Virus record (IMG/VR): IMGVR_UViG_3300017818_000129
Span: 1 to 21,544 of that record
Length of the DNA stretch: 21,544 nucleotides
Reading direction: 5' to 3' (one strand)
Origin: a virus
Shown: positions 2,084-19,217 of the stretch, piece by piece
Numbering within the stretch: the stretch's first letter is position 1
Layout of the letters: every line of letters begins with the position of its first letter
Notes under the pieces: model-generated
Told to the model about the DNA's origin: nothing
The model's database searches: none
The model's input: only the letters and a program-made list of their open reading frames with translations
Position numbers and translations under genes: made by a program

Positions 2084-2378
2084 AGGTTTGATGGGCGGCA
2101 TTACCTACGAGTCTGCCGTCATCATCCTCAAGTTCCTACGGAACGAAGCAGATATGGAAGACGATTTGTCGACAGTGGAATACTACAATGGTATGCTCCA
2201 AGGCATGGAGTCTGTCCGCAATGGTGAGATATTCTCACAATCCCTCATGAAGGAGATCAAAGCCTATGGCATCGAAATTATTGAACACCCTACGCCTGTC
2301 GTTGGAGATGACGGACGTCCTTGCGAACCTCGAGAGAACAGGGATCAAGATCGACCCGCAGTCTTTAGCAGAGATTGA
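2058..2378 (+). CDS. Hypothetical protein overlapping the polymerase gene
   Basis: The start is set at ATG 2058, with AGGAG at 2047-2051 six bases before it; an in-frame ATG at 2052 sits immediately after that site. The product has 106 residues. The first 70 are helical with clusters such as SAVIILKFLRNEADMED and YYNGMLQGMESVRNGE, plausible for a small helical protein. The last 37 residues are encoded in the 113-base overlap with the polymerase start in another frame and are rich in Pro, Arg and Asp (TPVVGDDGRPCEPRENRDQD), as expected where the other frame dictates the codons. The N-terminal part fills an otherwise empty gap between tight neighbours, which supports it being a gene. Function not recognised. 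Confidence 0.65.
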   Translation: MSKKPLAYRGLMGGITYESAVIILKFLRNEADMEDDLSTVEYYNGMLQGMESVRNGEIFSQSLMKEIKAYGIEIIEHPTPVVGDDGRPCEPRENRDQDRPAVFSRD

Positions 2379-3810
2379 GAAGGAATATAGGGAAGAGCTA
2401 CAAGAGCTAGAAGTTAAGCTCCAGCGCATGGCTGAAGAGGCGATGGGTGACACACCTATCAACCTCAACAGTGCTGATGACCGTTCTATGCTGTTCTACT
2501 CCCGTCGAGTCCTGAGTAAGAAGCGTTGGTCATCTATCTTCAACCTCGGTTCAGAGCTACGTGGAGCAACACGTAAACCGAAGCAACGTACAAAAATGAC
2601 AAAAAAATTATTTGCGATGTATGTCAAAGACGAGACTGAGATCTTACATAAGACAGTTGCATCCCGGTGTACTAAGTGCATGGGTAAAGGACGTAACCAA
2701 GTAATCAAGAAGGATGGTACGGTAGGTAAAGCTATACGGGTATGTAAGCCGTGTGGAGGCGATGGAGTTATCTATGCGAAGACTAAACAAGTTGCAGGCT
2801 TCAAGATTATACCGCGGGATGCGTGGGATACAGCGGCCGCAGGCTTTAAAACAGACCATGAGACTCTCAAGGAGAGGTTGGATGAATTATCTGGAGACGC
2901 ACGAGAGTTTGCCGAGTCTTACTCAAGGTACAATGCGTTGCGAACTTACTTATCTACCTTTGTCGAGGGACTCAAAAACAATCGCGACGACCAAGACATC
3001 GTGCATCCAGATTTCATGCAATGTATCACTGCGACCGGACGGCTCAGTTCTCGTAACCCCAACTTCCAGAACATGCCCCGTGGCTCTACCTTCGCCATTC
3101 GACGCGCAATGGTCTCTCGTTTTAACGGAGGAAAAATCCTAGAGGCTGACTACGGACAGCTTGAGTTTAGGGTGGCAGGCTATCTCGCTAACGACCCACA
3201 GGTGTACCACGATGTGGAGAACAAGACAGATGTACACACTGTTACTGCTGAGATTATCGGGTGTTCCCGTCAGGATGCTAAAGCGCACACATTTAAACCT
3301 CTTTACGGAGGCACAACAGGTACTGACGACCAGCAACGATATTACCGGACTTTTAAAGAGAAGTATGCTGGCGTAACGGATTGGCACGGAGACTTGCAAC
3401 GGGACGCTGTCGAGAAAGGATTCATTACGTTACCCTCCGGAAGACAGTACGCATTCCCCGGAACAACGTGGACAGAGTGGGGTACAGCAACCAATCGCAC
3501 AGCCATCTGTAACTACCCTGTGCAAGGATTTGCGACAGGTGATCTCCTACCAATAGCCTTAGTTTATCTCTCTAAGTCTATGAAAGGTAAGGAATTAAAA
3601 AGTGTCATTTGTAATACAGTACATGATAGTATTGTGCTTGACATCTTCCCCGGTGAGGAGGATACTGTAACTAATCTCGTGGTTGAGGCGATGATGTCTC
3701 TCCCACAAGAGTGCCGACGCAGGTATGGTATCGAGTATGACATGCCGATATCTGTCGAGGTTAAGATGGGGTCCAACTGGTTGGATACCCAAGTTGTTTA
3801 TGCAAACTAA
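2266..3810 (+). CDS. Family A DNA polymerase, polymerase domain only, with DnaJ-like zinc motif
   Basis: The 514-residue product copies the phage genome. Motif A is LEADYGQLEFRV at 292-303 (catalytic Asp295). Motif B is RQDAKAHTFKPLYGG at 335-349 with the Pol I spacing Arg335, Lys339, Phe343, Tyr347. Motif C is NTVHDSIVLD at 450-459 (His453, Asp454). The TGRLSSRNPNFQNMP segment is at 257-271. No exonuclease domain is present; it is encoded at 1001-1549. Residues 135-167 hold CTKCMGKG ... CKPCGGDG (Cys135, 138, 160, 163), like two arms of a DnaJ central zinc domain, placed before the catalytic palm. Start ATG 2266 has AAGGAGA at 2250-2256; the N-terminal LANLERTGIKID matches the start of Pol I polymerase domains. 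Phe343 aligns with E. coli Phe762. A DnaJ-like segment in PolA is something I recall from Puniceispirillum phage HMO-2011. Confidence 0.95.
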   Translation: MASKLLNTLRLSLEMTDVLANLERTGIKIDPQSLAEIEKEYREELQELEVKLQRMAEEAMGDTPINLNSADDRSMLFYSRRVLSKKRWSSIFNLGSELRGATRKPKQRTKMTKKLFAMYVKDETEILHKTVASRCTKCMGKGRNQVIKKDGTVGKAIRVCKPCGGDGVIYAKTKQVAGFKIIPRDAWDTAAAGFKTDHETLKERLDELSGDAREFAESYSRYNALRTYLSTFVEGLKNNRDDQDIVHPDFMQCITATGRLSSRNPNFQNMPRGSTFAIRRAMVSRFNGGKILEADYGQLEFRVAGYLANDPQVYHDVENKTDVHTVTAEIIGCSRQDAKAHTFKPLYGGTTGTDDQQRYYRTFKEKYAGVTDWHGDLQRDAVEKGFITLPSGRQYAFPGTTWTEWGTATNRTAICNYPVQGFATGDLLPIALVYLSKSMKGKELKSVICNTVHDSIVLDIFPGEEDTVTNLVVEAMMSLPQECRRRYGIEYDMPISVEVKMGSNWLDTQVVYAN

Positions 3811-3822
3811 AGGACAAACTTT

Positions 3823-4659
3823 ATGGGCGAACTGAGCGTTTTGGAAAACACAGATAACATCATGGATGTTGTCAAGTCAGGTGATCGTGAAGCTTTAATG
3901 GCTTTGATCGGACAAGGGGAAACAGAGGAAAAGCCAAAGACTGGCCTCACTCGTTTGAACATCAACTACGATACTGACGATGATGAGGGTAATACTCTCA
4001 AGAAAGGTGCGTGGAAAGTATTTCACGATGGAGCGTATGTATACGCAGATACTGTAACGTTTAGGCCGATGGCTCGTTACTACGAGTGGTCTGTGTACGA
4101 CGCAGAGGAAGGTAAGATTTCTTGCCGTTCTACCCAAGAGCCTAAGCTTGAGCATCAGTTCCCTGATACATCAGGTGGTAACAAGTGCGGACGCCTAAGC
4201 AAAAGCGAAGAGCAAGAGTTGGGCGAGGACCACCCTAAGACTTTGGCATCGCGTCTCGCTACGTGTAACCAAGTATTTTACGCAGTAATTTCTATGGAAG
4301 GTAAAACTGCGACAGGTACGGATGTGAAGATTACAGATCTTCCTGTGGTTGCGTATTTCAAGCGTTCGGGTTTCCGCCCTGCTCGTGAAGCAATTGACCG
4401 TCTACCGAAGGGCACTCTGATGAGTGAGCAACTCTTTGACCTGACTACTCAGCGTCACAAGATGGGTAGCGTCACATACTTCACTCCAGTGTTTACTCCG
4501 AGTAAAACTCTCAAGATGAAGGAGGAGGATTTTGAAACAACAGGAATGTTCGTTCAGACTGTTGCGGCGTCCAACCATCGAATCTTGGAACAGCACAAGG
4601 AAGCACTCAAAGGCAAGGCCAGTGAGCAAGAAATTGACTTGGCGGCGGACTTCAACTAA
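3823..4659 (+). CDS. Probable single-stranded DNA-binding protein (phage type)
   Basis: The 278-residue product sits directly after the polymerase, with AAGGA at 3810-3814 and an 8-base gap to the ATG. Its layout fits the phage ssDNA-binding proteins commonly found at this place in marine phages: an acidic N-terminus (1-40), LTRLNINYDTDDDEGNTL at 42-59, a strand- and aromatic-rich core with GAWKVFHDGAYVYADTVTFR, DTSGGNKCGRLS at 115-126 and LPVVAYFKRSGFRP at 173-186, and a C-terminal tail (EQEIDLAADFN) with the acidic-plus-terminal-aromatic character of SSB tails that dock partners. It would coat single strands and coordinate helicase, polymerase and nucleases. Cys101, Cys122 and Cys148 do not form a clear metal motif. 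The role rests on position and tail, with a recalled family resemblance; there is no diagnostic catalytic motif. Confidence 0.6.
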   Translation: MGELSVLENTDNIMDVVKSGDREALMALIGQGETEEKPKTGLTRLNINYDTDDDEGNTLKKGAWKVFHDGAYVYADTVTFRPMARYYEWSVYDAEEGKISCRSTQEPKLEHQFPDTSGGNKCGRLSKSEEQELGEDHPKTLASRLATCNQVFYAVISMEGKTATGTDVKITDLPVVAYFKRSGFRPAREAIDRLPKGTLMSEQLFDLTTQRHKMGSVTYFTPVFTPSKTLKMKEEDFETTGMFVQTVAASNHRILEQHKEALKGKASEQEIDLAADFN

Positions 4660-11436: not shown

Positions 11437-11775
11437 TTATCTGTCAACGTTTGCACGACCGGGCGTTGGAGACATTCCTAAATCAGCCTCAATTTGCATC
11501 AGAGTTTGTCGAGCTTCTTCCTTTACTTCCGCGCTGTATTTCGGATCGTCAATCAACTTGAGTAGTTGTCCGCGACGTCTTTGTAGCTTCTCTCGATCTG
11601 GAGCGCGATCTGCACCCATTGTTGTATCGACTGTATCACTTGTGACGGCACTCTGTTGCGTACCTGTTGCGTACTTTTTACGTACACTCCCCCCATATGA
11701 TTTTTTCTGACGCTTGGTGTCTCCACCACACATCATCGGCTTACGGCCGTCAGTTGCGTATACTTTTTTCTTCAT
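11437..11775 (-). CDS. Small Lys/Gly-rich phage protein at the end of the virion operon
   Basis: The 112-residue product starts at an ATGA overlap with the stop of the giant virion gene. The N-terminus is basic and glycine-rich (MKKKVYATDGRKPMMCGGDT, then KRQKKSYGGSVRKKYATG), resembling short MCGG/YGG-type proteins found among phage structural genes. The second half is a charged helix (REKLQRRRGQLLKLIDDPKY ... VKEEARQTLMQIEADLG). No enzyme motif is present. It is co-transcribed with the ejection-protein genes and could be a minor virion protein or assembly helper. Role not established. Confidence 0.75.
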   Translation of the reverse strand: MKKKVYATDGRKPMMCGGDTKRQKKSYGGSVRKKYATGTQQSAVTSDTVDTTMGADRAPDREKLQRRRGQLLKLIDDPKYSAEVKEEARQTLMQIEADLGMSPTPGRANVDR

Positions 11776-14700
11776 GGCATTAAAAACTCCATCTGTTGAT
11801 TTACTTGACTCGGTAGGACAGCTTCTACAGGTTCGTCGTCCTTCGCAGACTTTTCCTCTGCTGTGTTAGCACGGTCTGCACGTACCGCAACCATTCCTGC
11901 CGCAACTGAAAGTGCTTGGAAGAATTCAAAATTCTCTTGCTCTGTCTTTAGCGGTTTCCCTGAGATTAAAATATCCTGTACTTTCTTCGCGAGTTTAACG
12001 TCGTTAACCATCGCCTCCACAAGACTTAGTCCTTGCATACGGATGCTCTGGATCATGGCCTCGGCACCGACATAACGTGGAGAAACAACCCCGCGGTTAA
12101 TCGAGTAGATACGGGAGATCCAAGATTCGATAGATAGTCCTGTTGGAACACCATCTACGGACATTCCCTCAGTCATCTTACCCTTGTGAAGGACAGACCA
12201 CTCACCAATACTACGGAGTGTCTCGAATAGCTCTTCATCGTTATCCGTCATCTTGCTAAAGATTTCACGACGCTTTTGGGCCATTGCATCAGTGCCTGCT
12301 CCGATTGACTCGAGCAGTGCGCCGCCATCAAAGCCACGCTTCACGGTCATCAAGCGTTCGCCGTTATCGAAGTTTACGCCAACAGCAGAGAGTCCTTCGA
12401 TAGGACGCTCAGATTGTGAGCGAATCCACGTTGAGAAATACTCTTTGCGTAACCCTTTGTAAGCATTGACCGCATCATCGATCTTTTGCTGGCCCATTTC
12501 ACGTGACATGTTGCCTGCTTCGATATCAGCGTTAACTTCCTTGGTGATACGTGCCTTAACGAGCTGTTCGATGCTCTCGACTTCGGTAAAGCCAACATCT
12601 CCAGCGTTAAACTGCTTGAAGAAAAATGCTTGAGGGTCTGCGTCGATACTCTCGAGAGCTTTAGAGAGCTTGTCTCTTTCGTAGGATTCCTTCGTTGCCC
12701 GAGCGCGGAACTCTTCTTTCATCTTTGCTACGGTATTTTTATGTTCTGCAATATTCGCGGTGACAAGCCCTCGTATCTCATCATCGGCACGGAACATCGT
12801 ATCGATACTCACTTCCTTAAAGATACTATCCATATCGAGGAGGGGTACTTGTGTGTACGAACCTGCGTCATTGGCGCGAAGCATTTTGAGTTCTGAAACA
12901 CTAAAGAGGAAGTTCATGTTCATTCCCTCTTCAGCGAAGAGTGACTCGCCTTTTTGCATTTGTTCCGCAATATCCCGTAGGGCTTTTTCCCGTTGTGCTG
13001 GGAACATTGCGCCTTCTGATAGGGCTTTGCGTAACGGAGCCGCCGCAGGACTGTTGCGGATTACTTCGAGAACTTTGAGCTTTAACGCACCACGGAATGC
13101 TTCCGTCGCCTCGTCTCCTTCAACCATTTGGTAGTGGCCACCCCTGTCTCCAACAACTTCGGTGCGTTGTCCACGACCTCCTGTATACACAGTAATCGGC
13201 TCTTCAAAGTGCTTGCCAGCCACTTGCGCGATCTCGTTGTTGACACGCAGAACAGTATCTGTACTCGCAAACCCTTTAGTTATAGGGTCAGCTACACTCA
13301 GATCTCCGAGCATATTTATGAAGAACTCGTCTGGCTTAATACGGCCTGTAGCTCCTGCGCGGATTAAAGATGGTGTTGCTTCTTTTGGAGATACGCCTTT
13401 ACCAATCTTTTCTCCCGGAGTTCCCGGACGCATATGACGTTGCGCGAATTCGACTTGGAACGTTCTGTTAGCCGCCGCTAAGTCTGTGCTCGCATTTGAT
13501 GGCTGACGGTCTGCCGCATTAAAGAAGTTATCGTAGAAGCCGTCGCCAGATTCTGCGAGTTCATCGAGGCGATCTACCATACCGCGTTCTTGTAGGGCAC
13601 CGGCACCTGTCGTCTCGCGACTGTAGGTCTTACGGATACTCGCATTCAACCCACGCTTAAACATGTGGAATTCTTGGAGAGTAATTGCGAGTGGGATGTT
13701 GTTTGCAAGCTGGATTGCGGCTTGGGCTAACGCATCGTCATCCATAGCCAAGTCAGCTTGAGTTGCGACTGCGCCAGCTTCCCCCGGCTTTTTAGGAACA
13801 CGGCCACCAATAACAAGAGCACGAACACGTCTTACACTCTCTTCCGTGACACCCGGAATGTCGGTGTCTCCACGGAGTGCCCCGCGTATTCTCTCCCACT
13901 TATCGATGCCATTAGACTTCGCATTAAGACCAACAGCTTCGTAGAGCATACCTTTAAGGTCTTCCGCGTCGAGGTTGTTAGCCGCGGCCGCTCTTTCAAT
14001 CCCTGCATCGAGTTGCGCCATTGTGCGGTCAGCCGCATCATTAAATTGGACTGACCAGTTACGGAAATGGGCCGGTTTAGCTGTTAAGCCTGCTTCACGT
14101 TGCGCTCCTGCGGATGCGGCAGGTACATTAAACGACTCGACGAGCGTTGGGTCTACGTTTACTTCATCGTAGAAAGACGTAACATCCATGAGGGTGTTGT
14201 CGCCGTACTGGGAGTACAACACTTCATAGGGTTGTGTAGCCGCATTATAGTTGCGTGAACGTGTAATGTAGTATTGGTATGTGCCGACATTATCCGCACC
14301 ACCTTGTGGTGTACGCCCGTAGTCTCGTGCGTAAACATTCGCCGCTTCTTTAATCCGTACCAGACGCTCGTTCATACGCTCATTGAGACGGTCACTAATC
14401 TCCGACGACGGCATACCGACAGACTCAAGAACCTTACGGTACTTTTCATCATCCCTGATTAGGAACTCAGACATATCTGGGAGGTCATCTCCCGGCTTCC
14501 ATGTCGGGTCAACCATACGAATAGCGTCTTGGTTTCCTGAAAGCGCACTTTCAACCATACCGAAACGCTCGTCAAGAACTGTTTCAACCTCGGCCAAGTC
14601 ACGGGTGATGCCACGTCGTAGCTCATCGTTGTAGCTCGCTAGACCCTCGGCAAGTTCGCGGACATCCGCGTCTGTGCTTGATTGCGCCGCGCCGAGTAGC

Positions 14701-16982
14701 TGGGCGACAGCTTGGTTCATGCGGTTGGCAAGCTCTGCCTTCCGACTGAGGATTGCTTCCTTCGCGTAGAAGGCAGAACCCATGTCAGTGATATCTGTGA
14801 CATCTACACCACGTGCAAGCTGTTTCTCTGCGAGAAGAAGGACGTTAAGCCCAGTAACTACACCGAGTGTTTGTTGTACAAAGTCATCAGTAAAGTACGG
14901 TTGTTGAGTACGTGGGTTGATAATCCCGCTCAGTTTATCTTGGAGATTACGTACATAAGTTGCGCTTTGGATGACGCTCTGACGTGCTTCCGGAGAAAGA
15001 TTTGAGATCGAGTTGAGAACTTGCCGCTCAGTCTTGTTTAGGGAGAACGACAGCTCGTCGTATAGACCAGCCCTACGTAAAATATTAGGGTCCATTGTGG
15101 TGAAAGGCATCATCGCGGTATTGATTAATACATCACCCGTCATACCCGCAACGTTAACGAGCTTTTTAGTACCGCCAATTGTGATTTGCATTGCAGTGTG
15201 TCCGGACATAAATCCGAGAACTTCAGCAATTGCTTGAGACCCTTCCCCGCCTGCAAAGTGATCTGAGACAACCTGACCCGCTACCGACGCACCGAGGATA
15301 CCGTAGCCTGTTGTGCGGAATGTGTCGCCAAGCCATGTTCCTTTGAGAACTTGCCCCTGTGCATTTTCGATCCTCTTTGCAAAGCCATCGATAGCTTTGC
15401 GCTCGGCGTCAATCTGTGCTTGGAGTGTGCGAATCTCTCGCGGATTTTCCGTAGCATTTCTCTTTATGATGAGGTCATCCATGCGGCTAGTGGCTTGAGC
15501 CATTTGCTCCGATTGCACACGGATCTGGTTTGCCGCTGAGAAGTTGGGTGTATCTTTATACACACTTAGGTTAATACGCATTGAGCTTGCAGACATTCCA
15601 CGTGCCCAGTTGCTGAATGCACGGTCTGGGTAGGTTTCGAGGTACTCTGCGGCAAGCTCTCCGCCGGTTTTACCAGCTTTAAACGCTTCGTCTGCACTTC
15701 CATAGTTGTTATCGATCCACGTATTGAATCGTTTGACCTGTACCATCGCTAAACCATAGCGGAATCCAGCAGAGGCAACAGCTAAGGGGACTTCTTCTCC
15801 GAGGAAACGATACGCACGATCTTCTGCATCACGCGCATACATCCAATAAGACTCGGCGGCCTCAGGACTAAAGCCCTCCGCTTCGAGTGCTTTTGCGTAG
15901 TCGAAGATATACTCAGGAGACATGGTGTAGGTTTGTGTCTTTTCATCAAAGATCAGCATACCTTTCTTACGCATGTCTTCTTGAATCTTAGCGTCTGTCT
16001 TCAAGGTTTGGGAGTTTGCTTTTGCAATCTCGTACTGGGGTTCTCCATAAAGGAATAAACCAGACTCGAGTCCAGCCTCATACGTTGCAGACTCTGTAAA
16101 AGGTTTTGCCACAAATCCTGCAAGATCAAGGACAAATCCGACAGTATCGCGCACACCTTGGAAAGCGCGAGCAATCTTCATTTCTCCTGCATCTTCGGCC
16201 GCGATGAGTGCCGCATGATCAGCAGGATTACTCGAGAGCTTGTTGAGGATAGGGATGAGTGTCTCGTACCCTTCGGTTGGAGTTTCTTTTGCGAGGAGAG
16301 TGCTAGTTAATGGGGTGTACCCTACGGCAGGAGATTTTGCTTTACGAATATCTTCAATGTACCGTGGAGCAATATACCCGTACTGCCCTTCAGGATTCTC
16401 TTGTGTGCGGACACTATCGATTGCCATCGGGTCTGCGTTGTCCACGAGAGCTTGGGCAAAGTAGTAGCCCCCTTGAGATGCCATCAATGCTCCGCGCTGT
16501 TCTGGCGTAGCATTCTCGTCGAATCTCACGAATTGGAAGTTACCGGGCTTAATTGTTCCGTCTGCTTGTGCGCGTTGCACTGTGATAGGGAGACGTCCTT
16601 GTGCTTCAATTGCTTCTTGGGCATTCGTAGGGATAAGGAACCCAATAGACTTACTTATAGCATCACGATATTTTGCTTCTCTTACAGTATCATCGTGCTT
16701 AATAAATCTATCGTAGTAGCTCTTCTCAATTCCGGGATTTTCAGCGATAACACTCGGGGTGAGAGATTGAGTGAGTGCTTGTTTAAAACGGACCGGGGGA
16801 GCTTGGTAATCATCTGCCACCATATTTGATGGGGAAACAATACCTGAGATTTCTTCGGAACGTTCAGTAGGTCTCTCAAGCTCAGTTGCGGCAGGAGCGA
16901 CTTCTACAGGAGGGTTTAGGATATCCTCCATTTGTGCATTAGTTGCGTCAGTCTGTTCCTGTTCGGTAGGTTGTAGTGCCAT
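11772..16982 (-). CDS. Giant internal virion / DNA ejection protein, 1736 residues (T7 gp16-like by position)
   Basis: This is the largest gene in the window. It follows a 740-residue gene in the order and size relation of T7 gp15-gp16, so a role as an internal core protein ejected into the host envelope is inferred. The N-terminal 70 residues are Glu/Pro-rich and probably disordered. Residues about 555-630 (TTGYGILGASVAGQVVSDHF ... AMQITIGG ... AGMTGDVLINTAMMPF) are glycine/alanine-rich and hydrophobic, a candidate membrane-inserting stretch. Long helical parts with many charged residues follow (about 640-1000 and 1350-1500), and the tail is acidic. I see no lytic transglycosylase signature as in T7 gp16, and none of the single-subunit RNA polymerase motifs of N4-type virion polymerases. 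An AAGGGAAAA element precedes the ATG. Any enzymatic activity remains open. Confidence 0.75.
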   Translation of the reverse strand: MALQPTEQEQTDATNAQMEDILNPPVEVAPAATELERPTERSEEISGIVSPSNMVADDYQAPPVRFKQALTQSLTPSVIAENPGIEKSYYDRFIKHDDTVREAKYRDAISKSIGFLIPTNAQEAIEAQGRLPITVQRAQADGTIKPGNFQFVRFDENATPEQRGALMASQGGYYFAQALVDNADPMAIDSVRTQENPEGQYGYIAPRYIEDIRKAKSPAVGYTPLTSTLLAKETPTEGYETLIPILNKLSSNPADHAALIAAEDAGEMKIARAFQGVRDTVGFVLDLAGFVAKPFTESATYEAGLESGLFLYGEPQYEIAKANSQTLKTDAKIQEDMRKKGMLIFDEKTQTYTMSPEYIFDYAKALEAEGFSPEAAESYWMYARDAEDRAYRFLGEEVPLAVASAGFRYGLAMVQVKRFNTWIDNNYGSADEAFKAGKTGGELAAEYLETYPDRAFSNWARGMSASSMRINLSVYKDTPNFSAANQIRVQSEQMAQATSRMDDLIIKRNATENPREIRTLQAQIDAERKAIDGFAKRIENAQGQVLKGTWLGDTFRTTGYGILGASVAGQVVSDHFAGGEGSQAIAEVLGFMSGHTAMQITIGGTKKLVNVAGMTGDVLINTAMMPFTTMDPNILRRAGLYDELSFSLNKTERQVLNSISNLSPEARQSVIQSATYVRNLQDKLSGIINPRTQQPYFTDDFVQQTLGVVTGLNVLLLAEKQLARGVDVTDITDMGSAFYAKEAILSRKAELANRMNQAVAQLLGAAQSSTDADVRELAEGLASYNDELRRGITRDLAEVETVLDERFGMVESALSGNQDAIRMVDPTWKPGDDLPDMSEFLIRDDEKYRKVLESVGMPSSEISDRLNERMNERLVRIKEAANVYARDYGRTPQGGADNVGTYQYYITRSRNYNAATQPYEVLYSQYGDNTLMDVTSFYDEVNVDPTLVESFNVPAASAGAQREAGLTAKPAHFRNWSVQFNDAADRTMAQLDAGIERAAAANNLDAEDLKGMLYEAVGLNAKSNGIDKWERIRGALRGDTDIPGVTEESVRRVRALVIGGRVPKKPGEAGAVATQADLAMDDDALAQAAIQLANNIPLAITLQEFHMFKRGLNASIRKTYSRETTGAGALQERGMVDRLDELAESGDGFYDNFFNAADRQPSNASTDLAAANRTFQVEFAQRHMRPGTPGEKIGKGVSPKEATPSLIRAGATGRIKPDEFFINMLGDLSVADPITKGFASTDTVLRVNNEIAQVAGKHFEEPITVYTGGRGQRTEVVGDRGGHYQMVEGDEATEAFRGALKLKVLEVIRNSPAAAPLRKALSEGAMFPAQREKALRDIAEQMQKGESLFAEEGMNMNFLFSVSELKMLRANDAGSYTQVPLLDMDSIFKEVSIDTMFRADDEIRGLVTANIAEHKNTVAKMKEEFRARATKESYERDKLSKALESIDADPQAFFFKQFNAGDVGFTEVESIEQLVKARITKEVNADIEAGNMSREMGQQKIDDAVNAYKGLRKEYFSTWIRSQSERPIEGLSAVGVNFDNGERLMTVKRGFDGGALLESIGAGTDAMAQKRREIFSKMTDNDEELFETLRSIGEWSVLHKGKMTEGMSVDGVPTGLSIESWISRIYSINRGVVSPRYVGAEAMIQSIRMQGLSLVEAMVNDVKLAKKVQDILISGKPLKTEQENFEFFQALSVAAGMVAVRADRANTAEEKSAKDDEPVEAVLPSQVNQQMEFLMP

Positions 16983-16994
16983 GCAATTTTCCCT

Positions 16995-19217
16995 TTAGAG
17001 TACCAGTTCACCATTAGCGTTTAGCTTGCCACCGACGCCACTTGGAAGAGGAACCGTGTCACCAACTTTTGGATAAGCCTTATAGAAACGTCCGTTACTC
17101 GCTCTATTCACTTCATCTTCGAGGACAGCAAAGAGATAGTCTTTTGACCCTTGTCCCTCAGATATCATCTTTTTATCCGCAGTCCAAGCCGCCCAGACCC
17201 TCGCTTCATTCTTAGATGAAAGACCCATCGCAATTTTGTACTGTCGCTCCATCACTGTTACGACCGACTGAATCACAGCGCGTTTTACTTTTGTATCTTG
17301 GAGTGTGCCGTTAAAGTTGAGGAGGTTTTGAATACGCTCAATATCCGCGTCAGAGATCGTACGGGCCGCGGCGTTACCACCTTGGAGTGCCATAGCCATC
17401 GAGTAAACGAGAACACCTTCGTAGTATTTCTGGACAGCATTTGCTACGGCAATCTCGTTTGTCTCATTAAGATTTGCGATATCCTTATCGAGATTGTTTT
17501 TTAGATTAAGGAGCTTCTCTTTATTCTTACTCTTTTGTTGCTCAGTATCTGTTGATAAATCAATTGCTTGCATAAAGTAATCGATCTGAGCACCAAAACC
17601 ATTCAAAGCACTGACCGCAGAACCGACAATACCCGGAATTGCAGGGCTGTCTGCTCCGTACGAAGTCATGAGAGCTTGACCAACAAGTACAGTGTTCTTT
17701 GCCGCATCAGCCTTGTTTGTGATGTCGGCCATCTTTTGAGTACCGAGGTATGTTCCCTCGATGTACTTTACGTATTGTTCTTGTTCTTTGTTTAGTCGCT
17801 CAATATCATTTGTTTTAAACGCAGGGTAAAGACTTGCCGGTCCACGCATCTCATTGCGCTCGGTTTCAGACTGAACATCCAGAGCGTTGACGGGAGCGAT
17901 GAGGGTTAGTGCCGCTATACTATGGTCTGTATCTAGCCTATCAAACACACCCATTTTTTTCGTGTACTCATCGTACGCTTTCATTGCACCGGTGTAACTT
18001 GTGCCTGTGCCAGCTTCAAAAATATTAAACTGCCCGCCCCTCCTTTTAGCATCGAGGGAATAATAATTGTCGTAATTACGGAAAATTCCTCGAGTGTGGA
18101 GCATTGCATCAAGTGCGTCTGTGGGTTTCATATTAGCTGTTAGAGCTAGCCCGTGTATTTCTTCTACGACGGCATCTGTAGATGCGTTACGCATATTTAT
18201 GTTCTTGCCCGCATTTCTAATAATATTTTTTTCGCCTTCCGTAAGCACACGTTCTGACGTATCAAGAGTAGGAAGAGTGGTACCATCCTTAGGTACTCCT
18301 ATAATTTCCTCTTCTCCTGTCGTCGGGTTTACTACGACCTTTTTATCTAAGTCAATTTGCTCGGGAGGAATACGCATGTTGTACAGTCTTGCATAAACCT
18401 CTGATAGTTTAGCTTTAGACTCCTTAGAGATATCATTATACACACCCTCAAGTAACTCAATTGCTAGGTCTGGAGTGTAAGTCGTAGCGACCGACTCAAT
18501 CAAACTTGCGGGAATTCGGGGTGTTCTTTGACCGGCGAGTTTTGGATCGCCCTCTACAGTACGGGTGTAGTCTAGCGCGGCCTGCTCGAGATAGGAGCCG
18601 AGTTGCCCCTTCCATTGAGCCGCGAGAGTTGGATAGCGTTGCTCCCAGAAAGCGTATTGTTGCCCGCTAATCTCCCGTTGAGCGTGGAGAAGTTTCTCCG
18701 CACCTGTTGTACCACGTGGGATGTACTGGCCCGTGGTGACATCTTCATACATACGTCCCGTATCTTGGTCGCGTATTTGGGCTGGCATTCCATCCTTAAA
18801 TGAGTTGACACGACGGTAGACAAATACGGCGTTTGGATCGATAGTCTCGCCCATTGTTTGTGCGATGGTACGTGCAGGCGTTGCCGTATCAGTACCGAGT
18901 GCGATGTTACGTTCCCGGAGACGACGTTGATCGCGCTGTAATTTTGCGGCCTCACTCTCTCCCTCAATAGTAATCCCAGCACGGCCTGTTATTAGTGCTT
19001 CCTTCTCTTTCATAAACAGATCGTGCTCAGTCTGCGTAGCACCCTGCGGCGTTAAAAGAAACATTGCTCCTGCTTTTTTCTTTGCAAGCTCTTTATTAAA
19101 GGCAAGATCAATTGCGTCCTGCGCCTCTTTCTCTTTTGCCGTTTTCTTAGCTTCCGCGGCAGATACTGCTCTAGCTCCTGACGCTAGACCTACACCGAGT
19201 GCGAGTAAAGGTAACAT
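16995..19217 (-). CDS. Internal virion protein, 740 residues (T7 gp15-like by size and order)
   Basis: The start ATG shares its A with the preceding TAA and has AGGAG about 10 bases upstream. The length is near that of T7 gp15 (747), and it lies just before the giant protein, so a place in the internal core or ejection tube is inferred. The N-terminus is hydrophobic and small (MLPLLALGVGLASGARAVSA), possibly a membrane-active segment, followed by an Ala/Lys helix. The middle and C-terminal parts are predominantly helical with polar Asn/Lys-rich stretches (KEKLLNLKNNLDKDIANLNE). The last 30 residues look like a small beta domain (VGDTVPLPSGVGGKLNANGE). No catalytic motif is visible. The assignment is by context, since the sequence is not directly recognisable as gp15. 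Confidence 0.7.
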   Translation of the reverse strand: MLPLLALGVGLASGARAVSAAEAKKTAKEKEAQDAIDLAFNKELAKKKAGAMFLLTPQGATQTEHDLFMKEKEALITGRAGITIEGESEAAKLQRDQRRLRERNIALGTDTATPARTIAQTMGETIDPNAVFVYRRVNSFKDGMPAQIRDQDTGRMYEDVTTGQYIPRGTTGAEKLLHAQREISGQQYAFWEQRYPTLAAQWKGQLGSYLEQAALDYTRTVEGDPKLAGQRTPRIPASLIESVATTYTPDLAIELLEGVYNDISKESKAKLSEVYARLYNMRIPPEQIDLDKKVVVNPTTGEEEIIGVPKDGTTLPTLDTSERVLTEGEKNIIRNAGKNINMRNASTDAVVEEIHGLALTANMKPTDALDAMLHTRGIFRNYDNYYSLDAKRRGGQFNIFEAGTGTSYTGAMKAYDEYTKKMGVFDRLDTDHSIAALTLIAPVNALDVQSETERNEMRGPASLYPAFKTNDIERLNKEQEQYVKYIEGTYLGTQKMADITNKADAAKNTVLVGQALMTSYGADSPAIPGIVGSAVSALNGFGAQIDYFMQAIDLSTDTEQQKSKNKEKLLNLKNNLDKDIANLNETNEIAVANAVQKYYEGVLVYSMAMALQGGNAAARTISDADIERIQNLLNFNGTLQDTKVKRAVIQSVVTVMERQYKIAMGLSSKNEARVWAAWTADKKMISEGQGSKDYLFAVLEDEVNRASNGRFYKAYPKVGDTVPLPSGVGGKLNANGELVL

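Follow-up and report, generated by a model that had tools for sequence, protein, structure and literature searches.

The locus analyzed here raises two linked questions: where in a phage replicase does a zinc motif of the kind known from DnaJ sit, and what might it do there? The window, by which we mean the whole stretch of 21,544 bases of virus record IMGVR_UViG_3300017818_000129, encodes at positions 2266-3810 (plus strand, as for the other features between 1001 and 4659 described below) a 514-aa family A DNA polymerase, which consists of the polymerase part only and has its own start codon; an AAGGAG at 2250-2255, 10 nt upstream of the ATG, may act as its ribosome binding site. Pfam places DNA_pol_A (PF00476) at residues 195-506 of the translated protein (E 4e-52), and an AF2 model built with 86 sequences (mean pLDDT 89.5, pTM 0.78) aligned 387 of its 514 residues to KlenTaq 422-832 (5o7t; VIA Z 30.8, rmsd 2.6), with only whole-polymerase matches among the VIA matches listed. 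The relatives used for comparison were the best 80 from each of five viral-contig scans (at least 600 stretches each), a sample that leans to near relatives; 395 loci were retained, 385 of which have a full-length polymerase (332 distinct sequences). The motif A aspartate, Asp295 (3148-3150), and motif C, His453-Asp454-Ser455 (3622-3630), align with their Pol I counterparts, and D295, R335, K339, F343, H453 and D454 are present in all 385 full-length relatives, with Y347 in 381 of them. By domain, fold and the residues of motifs A, B and C, the window protein is a family A polymerase. Motif C reads HDS in 385/385 homologues, as opposed to HDE in Pol I, with a serine always following Asp454 at what we take to be the position of Pol I Glu883.

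Translation of the gene confirmed the two motifs reported by the first-pass annotation, CTKCMGKG at residues 135-142 (2668-2691; Cys135 and Cys138) and CKPCGGDG at residues 160-167 (2743-2766; Cys160 and Cys163), and bore out its description of a half-set of DnaJ-type motifs, two repeats only, within a family A polymerase. None of 20,000 shuffled versions of the protein contained the pair. The first knuckle and both cysteines of the second were found in 385/385 relatives, so that all four cysteines are invariant among the full-length polymerases collected; loss of the cysteines in close relatives, named beforehand as grounds for giving up the zinc module, was not seen. Gly140, Gly142, Gly151 and Gly167 are likewise invariant (385/385), and the cysteines and glycines are the most strongly conserved residues of the insert that carries them. 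Gly165, the earlier of the two consensus glycines in the second motif, is retained in only 276 of the 385, and by a strict count two complete CxxCxGxG motifs occur in only 238 of the 332 distinct proteins. The spacer between the motifs is 17 residues long in 326 of the 332.

HMO-2011-type phages are an abundant group in the ocean. Papers from 2019 to 2022 recognize the group by its polymerase, the hallmark being a pair of CXXCXGXG motifs in what they call a DnaJ domain or a partial DnaJ central domain (PMC9038755, PMC6918029, PMC8528129), and the motif pair is therefore not new. The record of Puniceispirillum phage HMO-2011 itself is annotated with Pfam DnaJ_CXXCXGXG, in agreement with these papers and with the partial DnaJ domain that the first-pass annotation had named for this phage, though not as a trait of the whole group. 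Among 50,697 phage records, the best full-length relative of the window polymerase is that of Pelagibacter phage HTVC033P (47.5% identity); other best full-length relatives belong to Roseobacter phages CRP-1, CRP-2, CRP-3 and others, and to HMO-2011. Query coverage of at least 80% was reached by 12 of the 3,335 matching records (11 phages). The HMO-2011-type enzymes are of the same family and share the two knuckles and the same insert, at 36-48% identity over 95-99% of the protein; they differ in that the isolates carry exonuclease and polymerase in one protein of ~680-716 aa, whereas the window has two genes 716 bp apart. Thus the window polymerase has the two CXXCXGXG motifs used to define the group in the relevant passage of PMC9038755, but not the arrangement of exonuclease, DnaJ part and polymerase in a single protein. 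Homologues of HMO-2011-type TerL and capsid genes were found in all eight of the longer contigs of relatives with a split exonuclease, which are therefore HMO-2011-type phages; the window contig ends before such genes. By its polymerase, the window most probably comes from an HMO-2011-type phage. What is new here is the site of the module in the thumb, its match to repeats 2 and 3 of DnaJ and its consistent positive charge, together with a clade of split genes, which we do not claim to be unpublished, and a possible second lineage. The thumb placement was not found stated in the open literature searched, most subscription papers being outside that search, and the main-text passages of the HMO-2011-group papers do not describe the split form.

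How close is the module to DnaJ itself? The first-pass annotation had proposed a search with the DnaJ central domain profile, and the result was a match of limited strength: DnaJ_CXXCXGXG (PF00684; profile positions 14-55) matched residues 131-171 of the polymerase with an E value of 0.0013, at 19.4 bits, which is under the gathering score of 32.7. The same profile matched 80 of the 86 relatives scanned at E<=0.01 (best 5e-7). When a profile of the zinc core from 88 representatives was compared with E. coli DnaJ, the best match (20.1 bits) was to residues 156-193, that is, to repeats 2 and 3 (CPTCHGSG at 161 and CPHCQGRG at 183). Judged by sequence, the module is a DnaJ-type half zinc ribbon equivalent to these two repeats. 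As repeats 2 and 3 make up the second zinc centre of DnaJ, one zinc is expected, which the ribbon probably holds. The module resembles the DnaJ central zinc domain in having CxxCxGxG knuckles 22-25 residues apart, but it has two repeats and one zinc centre in place of the four repeats and two centres that define the DnaJ/Hsp40 domain; it lacks a chaperone context, as well as a J domain (no Pfam match up to E 10 in the polymerase), and its loop between the knuckles is longer and contains KKDG. Other two-repeat zinc proteins are more distant comparisons. Anti-TRAP was matched by 8 of 86 relatives, all weakly, and the polymerase weakly matches Q-like families and the P22-type Q among phage antiterminators; Anti-TRAP and Q are free-standing regulators, whereas the module is an insert in a polymerase.

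Several lines of evidence place that insert inside the thumb. Run by hmmsearch on solved structures, the family profile aligned with two Klenow blocks, one on either side of the insert. A profile from which the insert had been removed matched E. coli Pol I 531-738 as a single domain across the junction at 93.8 bits, compared with 21.5 bits for the part before the junction and 72.0 bits for the part after it alone, and mapped the junction near Pol I residues ~594-603. In the AF2 model, with secondary structure assigned by DSSP, helix H (residues 31-60; 2356-2445), aligned to Pol I from 531, is followed by an NLNS motif and helix H1 (residues 70-78; 2473-2499), which corresponds to Pol I from NLSS onward to 593; after the 119-residue insert (residues 79-197; 2500-2856), bounded by the model and the insert-less profile, come helix H2 (residues 198-207; 2857-2886), also placed by that profile, and a helix at 210-239. 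H, H1 and H2 are the usual Pol I names for these helices. Within the insert, strands at 96-99 and 102-105 and a helix at 113-123 precede the predicted zinc-ribbon core (residues 124-180; 2635-2805), whose four strands (128-134, 143-147, 153-159 and 168-176) form one ribbon in which each CxxC knuckle joins two strands. The same elements appear in the model of a fused relative (mean pLDDT 85.0), and the residues of the window polymerase left unaligned to KlenTaq are about as many as the insert contains. Across 312 sequences the insert is 104-128 residues long (median 117).

On the evidence of the profiles and the models, then, the module is an insert inside the thumb between H1 and H2, which corrects its placement in the literature between the exonuclease and polymerase domains. 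It also refines the first-pass annotation, which had put the motifs before the palm; this is right as far as it goes, but too coarse. The structure prediction that the same annotation had called for placed both knuckles in one predicted ribbon, an outcome that does not count against a zinc site. A location in the thumb suggests a role in holding DNA or a replication partner.

The first-pass annotation had drawn a comparison with the thumb insert of T7 polymerase, and the two do prove to occupy neighboring, though distinct, sites at the thumb tip. T7 gp5 resembles the window enzyme as a phage family A replicase with a basic insert at the tip of the thumb. However, the thioredoxin-binding insert of gp5 precedes an NPSS motif that pairs with NLSS of Pol I, and therefore lies between H and H1, whereas the phage zinc insert follows H1, one helix further on; gp5 also lacks the zinc knuckles, of which the window polymerase has two. 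The position relative to NxSS and H1 led us to reject the T7-type thioredoxin insertion site for the module, and to set aside one multiple alignment that had overlaid the T7 insert on the zinc region. Passages of two papers describe thumb insertions in human Pol theta (insert 1) and in plant organellar polymerases as lying near DNA and serving processivity or lesion bypass (PMC9962433, PMC7699545); the Pol theta insert is short (31 aa) and unrelated in sequence to the phage insert, and the part of PMC9962433 that deals with it reports no zinc.

The charge of the insert bears on what it might hold. In the window polymerase, its net charge is +20, with -14 for the other 395 residues. The insert is net positive in 312/312 sequences (3 to 22, median +14; the rest of the protein has a median of -6), but it ranks in the top 5% of windows of its own protein for positive charge in just 111 of the 312, and the charge is therefore supportive rather than striking everywhere. 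Thumb inserts elsewhere provide precedents. In Pol theta, insert 1 makes contact with the minor groove and contributes to processivity (PMC9962433); in T7, the insert presents basic residues to the DNA (PMC5984650) and binds the acidic tails of the T7 helicase (PMC5997990) and the T7 SSB (PMC7699545). These known roles, taken with the basic character of the phage insert, lead us to favor a grip on the duplex and/or the docking of a partner.

Removal of the thumb tip from Klenow is reported to lower its processivity. From the computed position, conservation, repeat correspondence, charge and predicted fold of the insert, we infer a bound zinc, a contact with DNA or a partner, and a gain in processivity, which could fit together as follows. 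The zinc would keep the thumb tip rigid, and the positive surface of the insert would lie against the freshly synthesized duplex behind the active site and/or bind an acidic tail on a replisome protein, a contact that would raise processivity. The insert would then do the job that falls to the thioredoxin-binding insert in T7, or to insert 1 in human Pol theta, its own zinc serving as scaffold. We regard this proposal as a whole, a zinc-stabilized basic thumb insert contacting duplex and/or an acidic-tailed partner, as standing at even chances on the sequence analysis, the models and the analogies.

The nearest competing account shifts the weight from DNA to protein, in that the insert would mainly dock an acidic-tailed replisome protein. 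A candidate for such a partner is encoded by the gene adjoining that of the polymerase (3823-4659), whose product is conserved, has an acidic C-terminus and may be a single-strand-binding protein of the phage. A net acidic charge (of at least 2) over the final 15 residues is seen in 232 of 242 distinct homologues, while such tails are much rarer among the helicases (41/293), Cas4-like nucleases (31/260) and polymerases (87/350). Acidic tails are known in phage SSBs (PMC5686142), and the binding of helicase and SSB tails by the T7 insert, as given in passages of PMC5997990 and PMC7699545, offers a precedent. However, the product of 3823-4659 matched no family or solved structure pointing to an SSB, and acidic tails are common in the exonuclease as well (80/150), so that docking as the main role of the insert seems possible but somewhat doubtful.

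A plainer account would make the ribbon a structural zinc site only, one that steadies a long loop of the thumb but itself touches neither DNA nor a partner. The peak of conservation at cysteines and glycines, residues that stabilize a fold, is what it would lead one to expect. Yet it does not fit well with an insert that is basic throughout the 312 sequences and whose length is held at 104-128 residues across divergent polymerases, and we consider it unlikely.

The first-pass annotation had also suggested a host chaperone as a partner, and the module might by extension recruit a host factor, either the DnaK/DnaJ chaperones or a thioredoxin. E. coli DnaJ and lambda replication are mentioned beside the domain in a passage of PMC9038755, and host thioredoxin serves T7 polymerase at a thumb site close by (PMC5984650). 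Against this, the polymerase has no J domain and two of the four repeats only, which leaves the chaperone suggestion unsupported; no thioredoxin or glutaredoxin family was matched among the window genes scanned; and the insert site differs from that of T7. Recruitment of a host factor is thus very unlikely.

The exonuclease, a separate gene in the window, brings in the last of the accounts to be weighed. The 182-aa product of 1001-1549 is a 3'-5' exonuclease (PF01612, E 8e-16) in which the active-site residues D7/E9, D80 and Y153/D157 are present, and its gene lies 716 bp from that of the polymerase. Exonuclease and polymerase are one protein in 11/11 isolates; of the 395 loci, 201 are fused and 174 split, and in 20 no exonuclease was found. 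The polymerase frame begins no more than 506 bases from the start of the locus in the 16 loci of the latter kind that were listed, and the gene may there lie beyond the contig. In a quick tree of the 88 representatives, the split form makes one clade within which two fused members (L148 and L149) are nested, implying two changes, explicable by two fissions or by a fission with a later re-fusion. Most split relatives show a short overlap of the two genes, with a +1 frame relation in 102 of 108 overlapping pairs and an ATGA junction in some; in the window's own clade the genes are 200-1,532 bp apart. A programmed frameshift joining the two products, an idea raised by the +1 overlaps, was rejected for the window, given the 716 bp and three ORFs in between.

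Although the exonuclease is a separate gene in 174 of the 395 loci, it is most improbable that the module binds a separate exonuclease subunit and so rebuilds a proofreading polymerase, as the first-pass annotation had entertained, because all fused relatives keep the module (201/395 loci; 174/332 distinct proteins), so that holding a detached exonuclease is not the reason for its acquisition, and because the thumb tip is not known to be a contact face of the exonuclease domain in enzymes of the Pol I type.

The three small ORFs between exonuclease and polymerase all have homologues in near relatives: 1542-1856, which weakly matches the D5-like phage regulator family phrog_323 (E 1e-4), and 1844-2083 and 2052-2378, the latter overlapping the start of the polymerase gene, for which no family was matched. 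An HNH endonuclease gene at 459-1004, between helicase and exonuclease, occurs in only some near relatives and is possibly a homing endonuclease. On the minus strand, 11772-16982 and 16995-19217 encode large proteins of 1736 and 740 aa, neither of which had a match in the 50,697 phage records or a PHROG family.

Is the module confined to HMO-2011-type polymerases? A search using just the zinc core found one further polymerase, that of the freshwater phage ctsHD2 (MW202816; L325:1667-3856). It is a distant member of family A (PF00476, E 1e-9) in which PF00684 matched residues 282-322 (E 0.0047), and it has the knuckles CPECDGGG and CKPCQGTG. From its sequence, the knuckle pair apparently lies in the same thumb loop; the insert-less profile gave no significant block with ctsHD2, and whole-protein similarity is too low to align the two securely. 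A search of the phage collection for relatives of ctsHD2 recovered no other phage, and viral contigs yielded none. If the placement is correct, the ribbon was either taken up in a second lineage or kept from a common ancestor. Other matches were discarded: three pelagiphage (Autographiviridae) polymerases, inspected as weak matches of the ctsHD2 zinc region, have no CxxC, the match in Vibrio phage K249 lacks the knuckles, and that in Bacteriophage sp. MT835502 is not a polymerase. Nor was CxxC found in the polymerases of the Zobellviridae ICP2 and MEP401 or of Stenotrophomonas phage Summit. The annotation of ICP2 and MEP401 (L007 and L327) breaks the polymerase into two genes past the TGRLSS region, which is not the kind of split described above, and these proteins have no zinc knuckles. 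We tentatively suggest, as a possibility worth entertaining rather than one we expect to hold, that the H1-H2 thumb tip is a reusable site for a zinc-ribbon clamp complete in itself, which would make the enzyme processive with no host protein; two or more remote lineages would have it, the HMO-2011 type, including the split clade, and ctsHD2.

These results also have a practical side. The DNA polymerase tree in PMC9038755 took only proteins >540 aa, according to the passage that describes it, and a filter of this kind would miss members with split genes, such as the 514-aa window polymerase. Placing the module in the thumb turns the curiosity of a DnaJ piece in a polymerase into a testable question, namely whether a phage replicase can draw processivity from a zinc ribbon without thioredoxin, and may point biotechnology to new processive polymerases. 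If the H1-H2 tip does serve as a reusable clamp site, the ribbon would be a zinc-based counterpart of the thioredoxin solution of T7.
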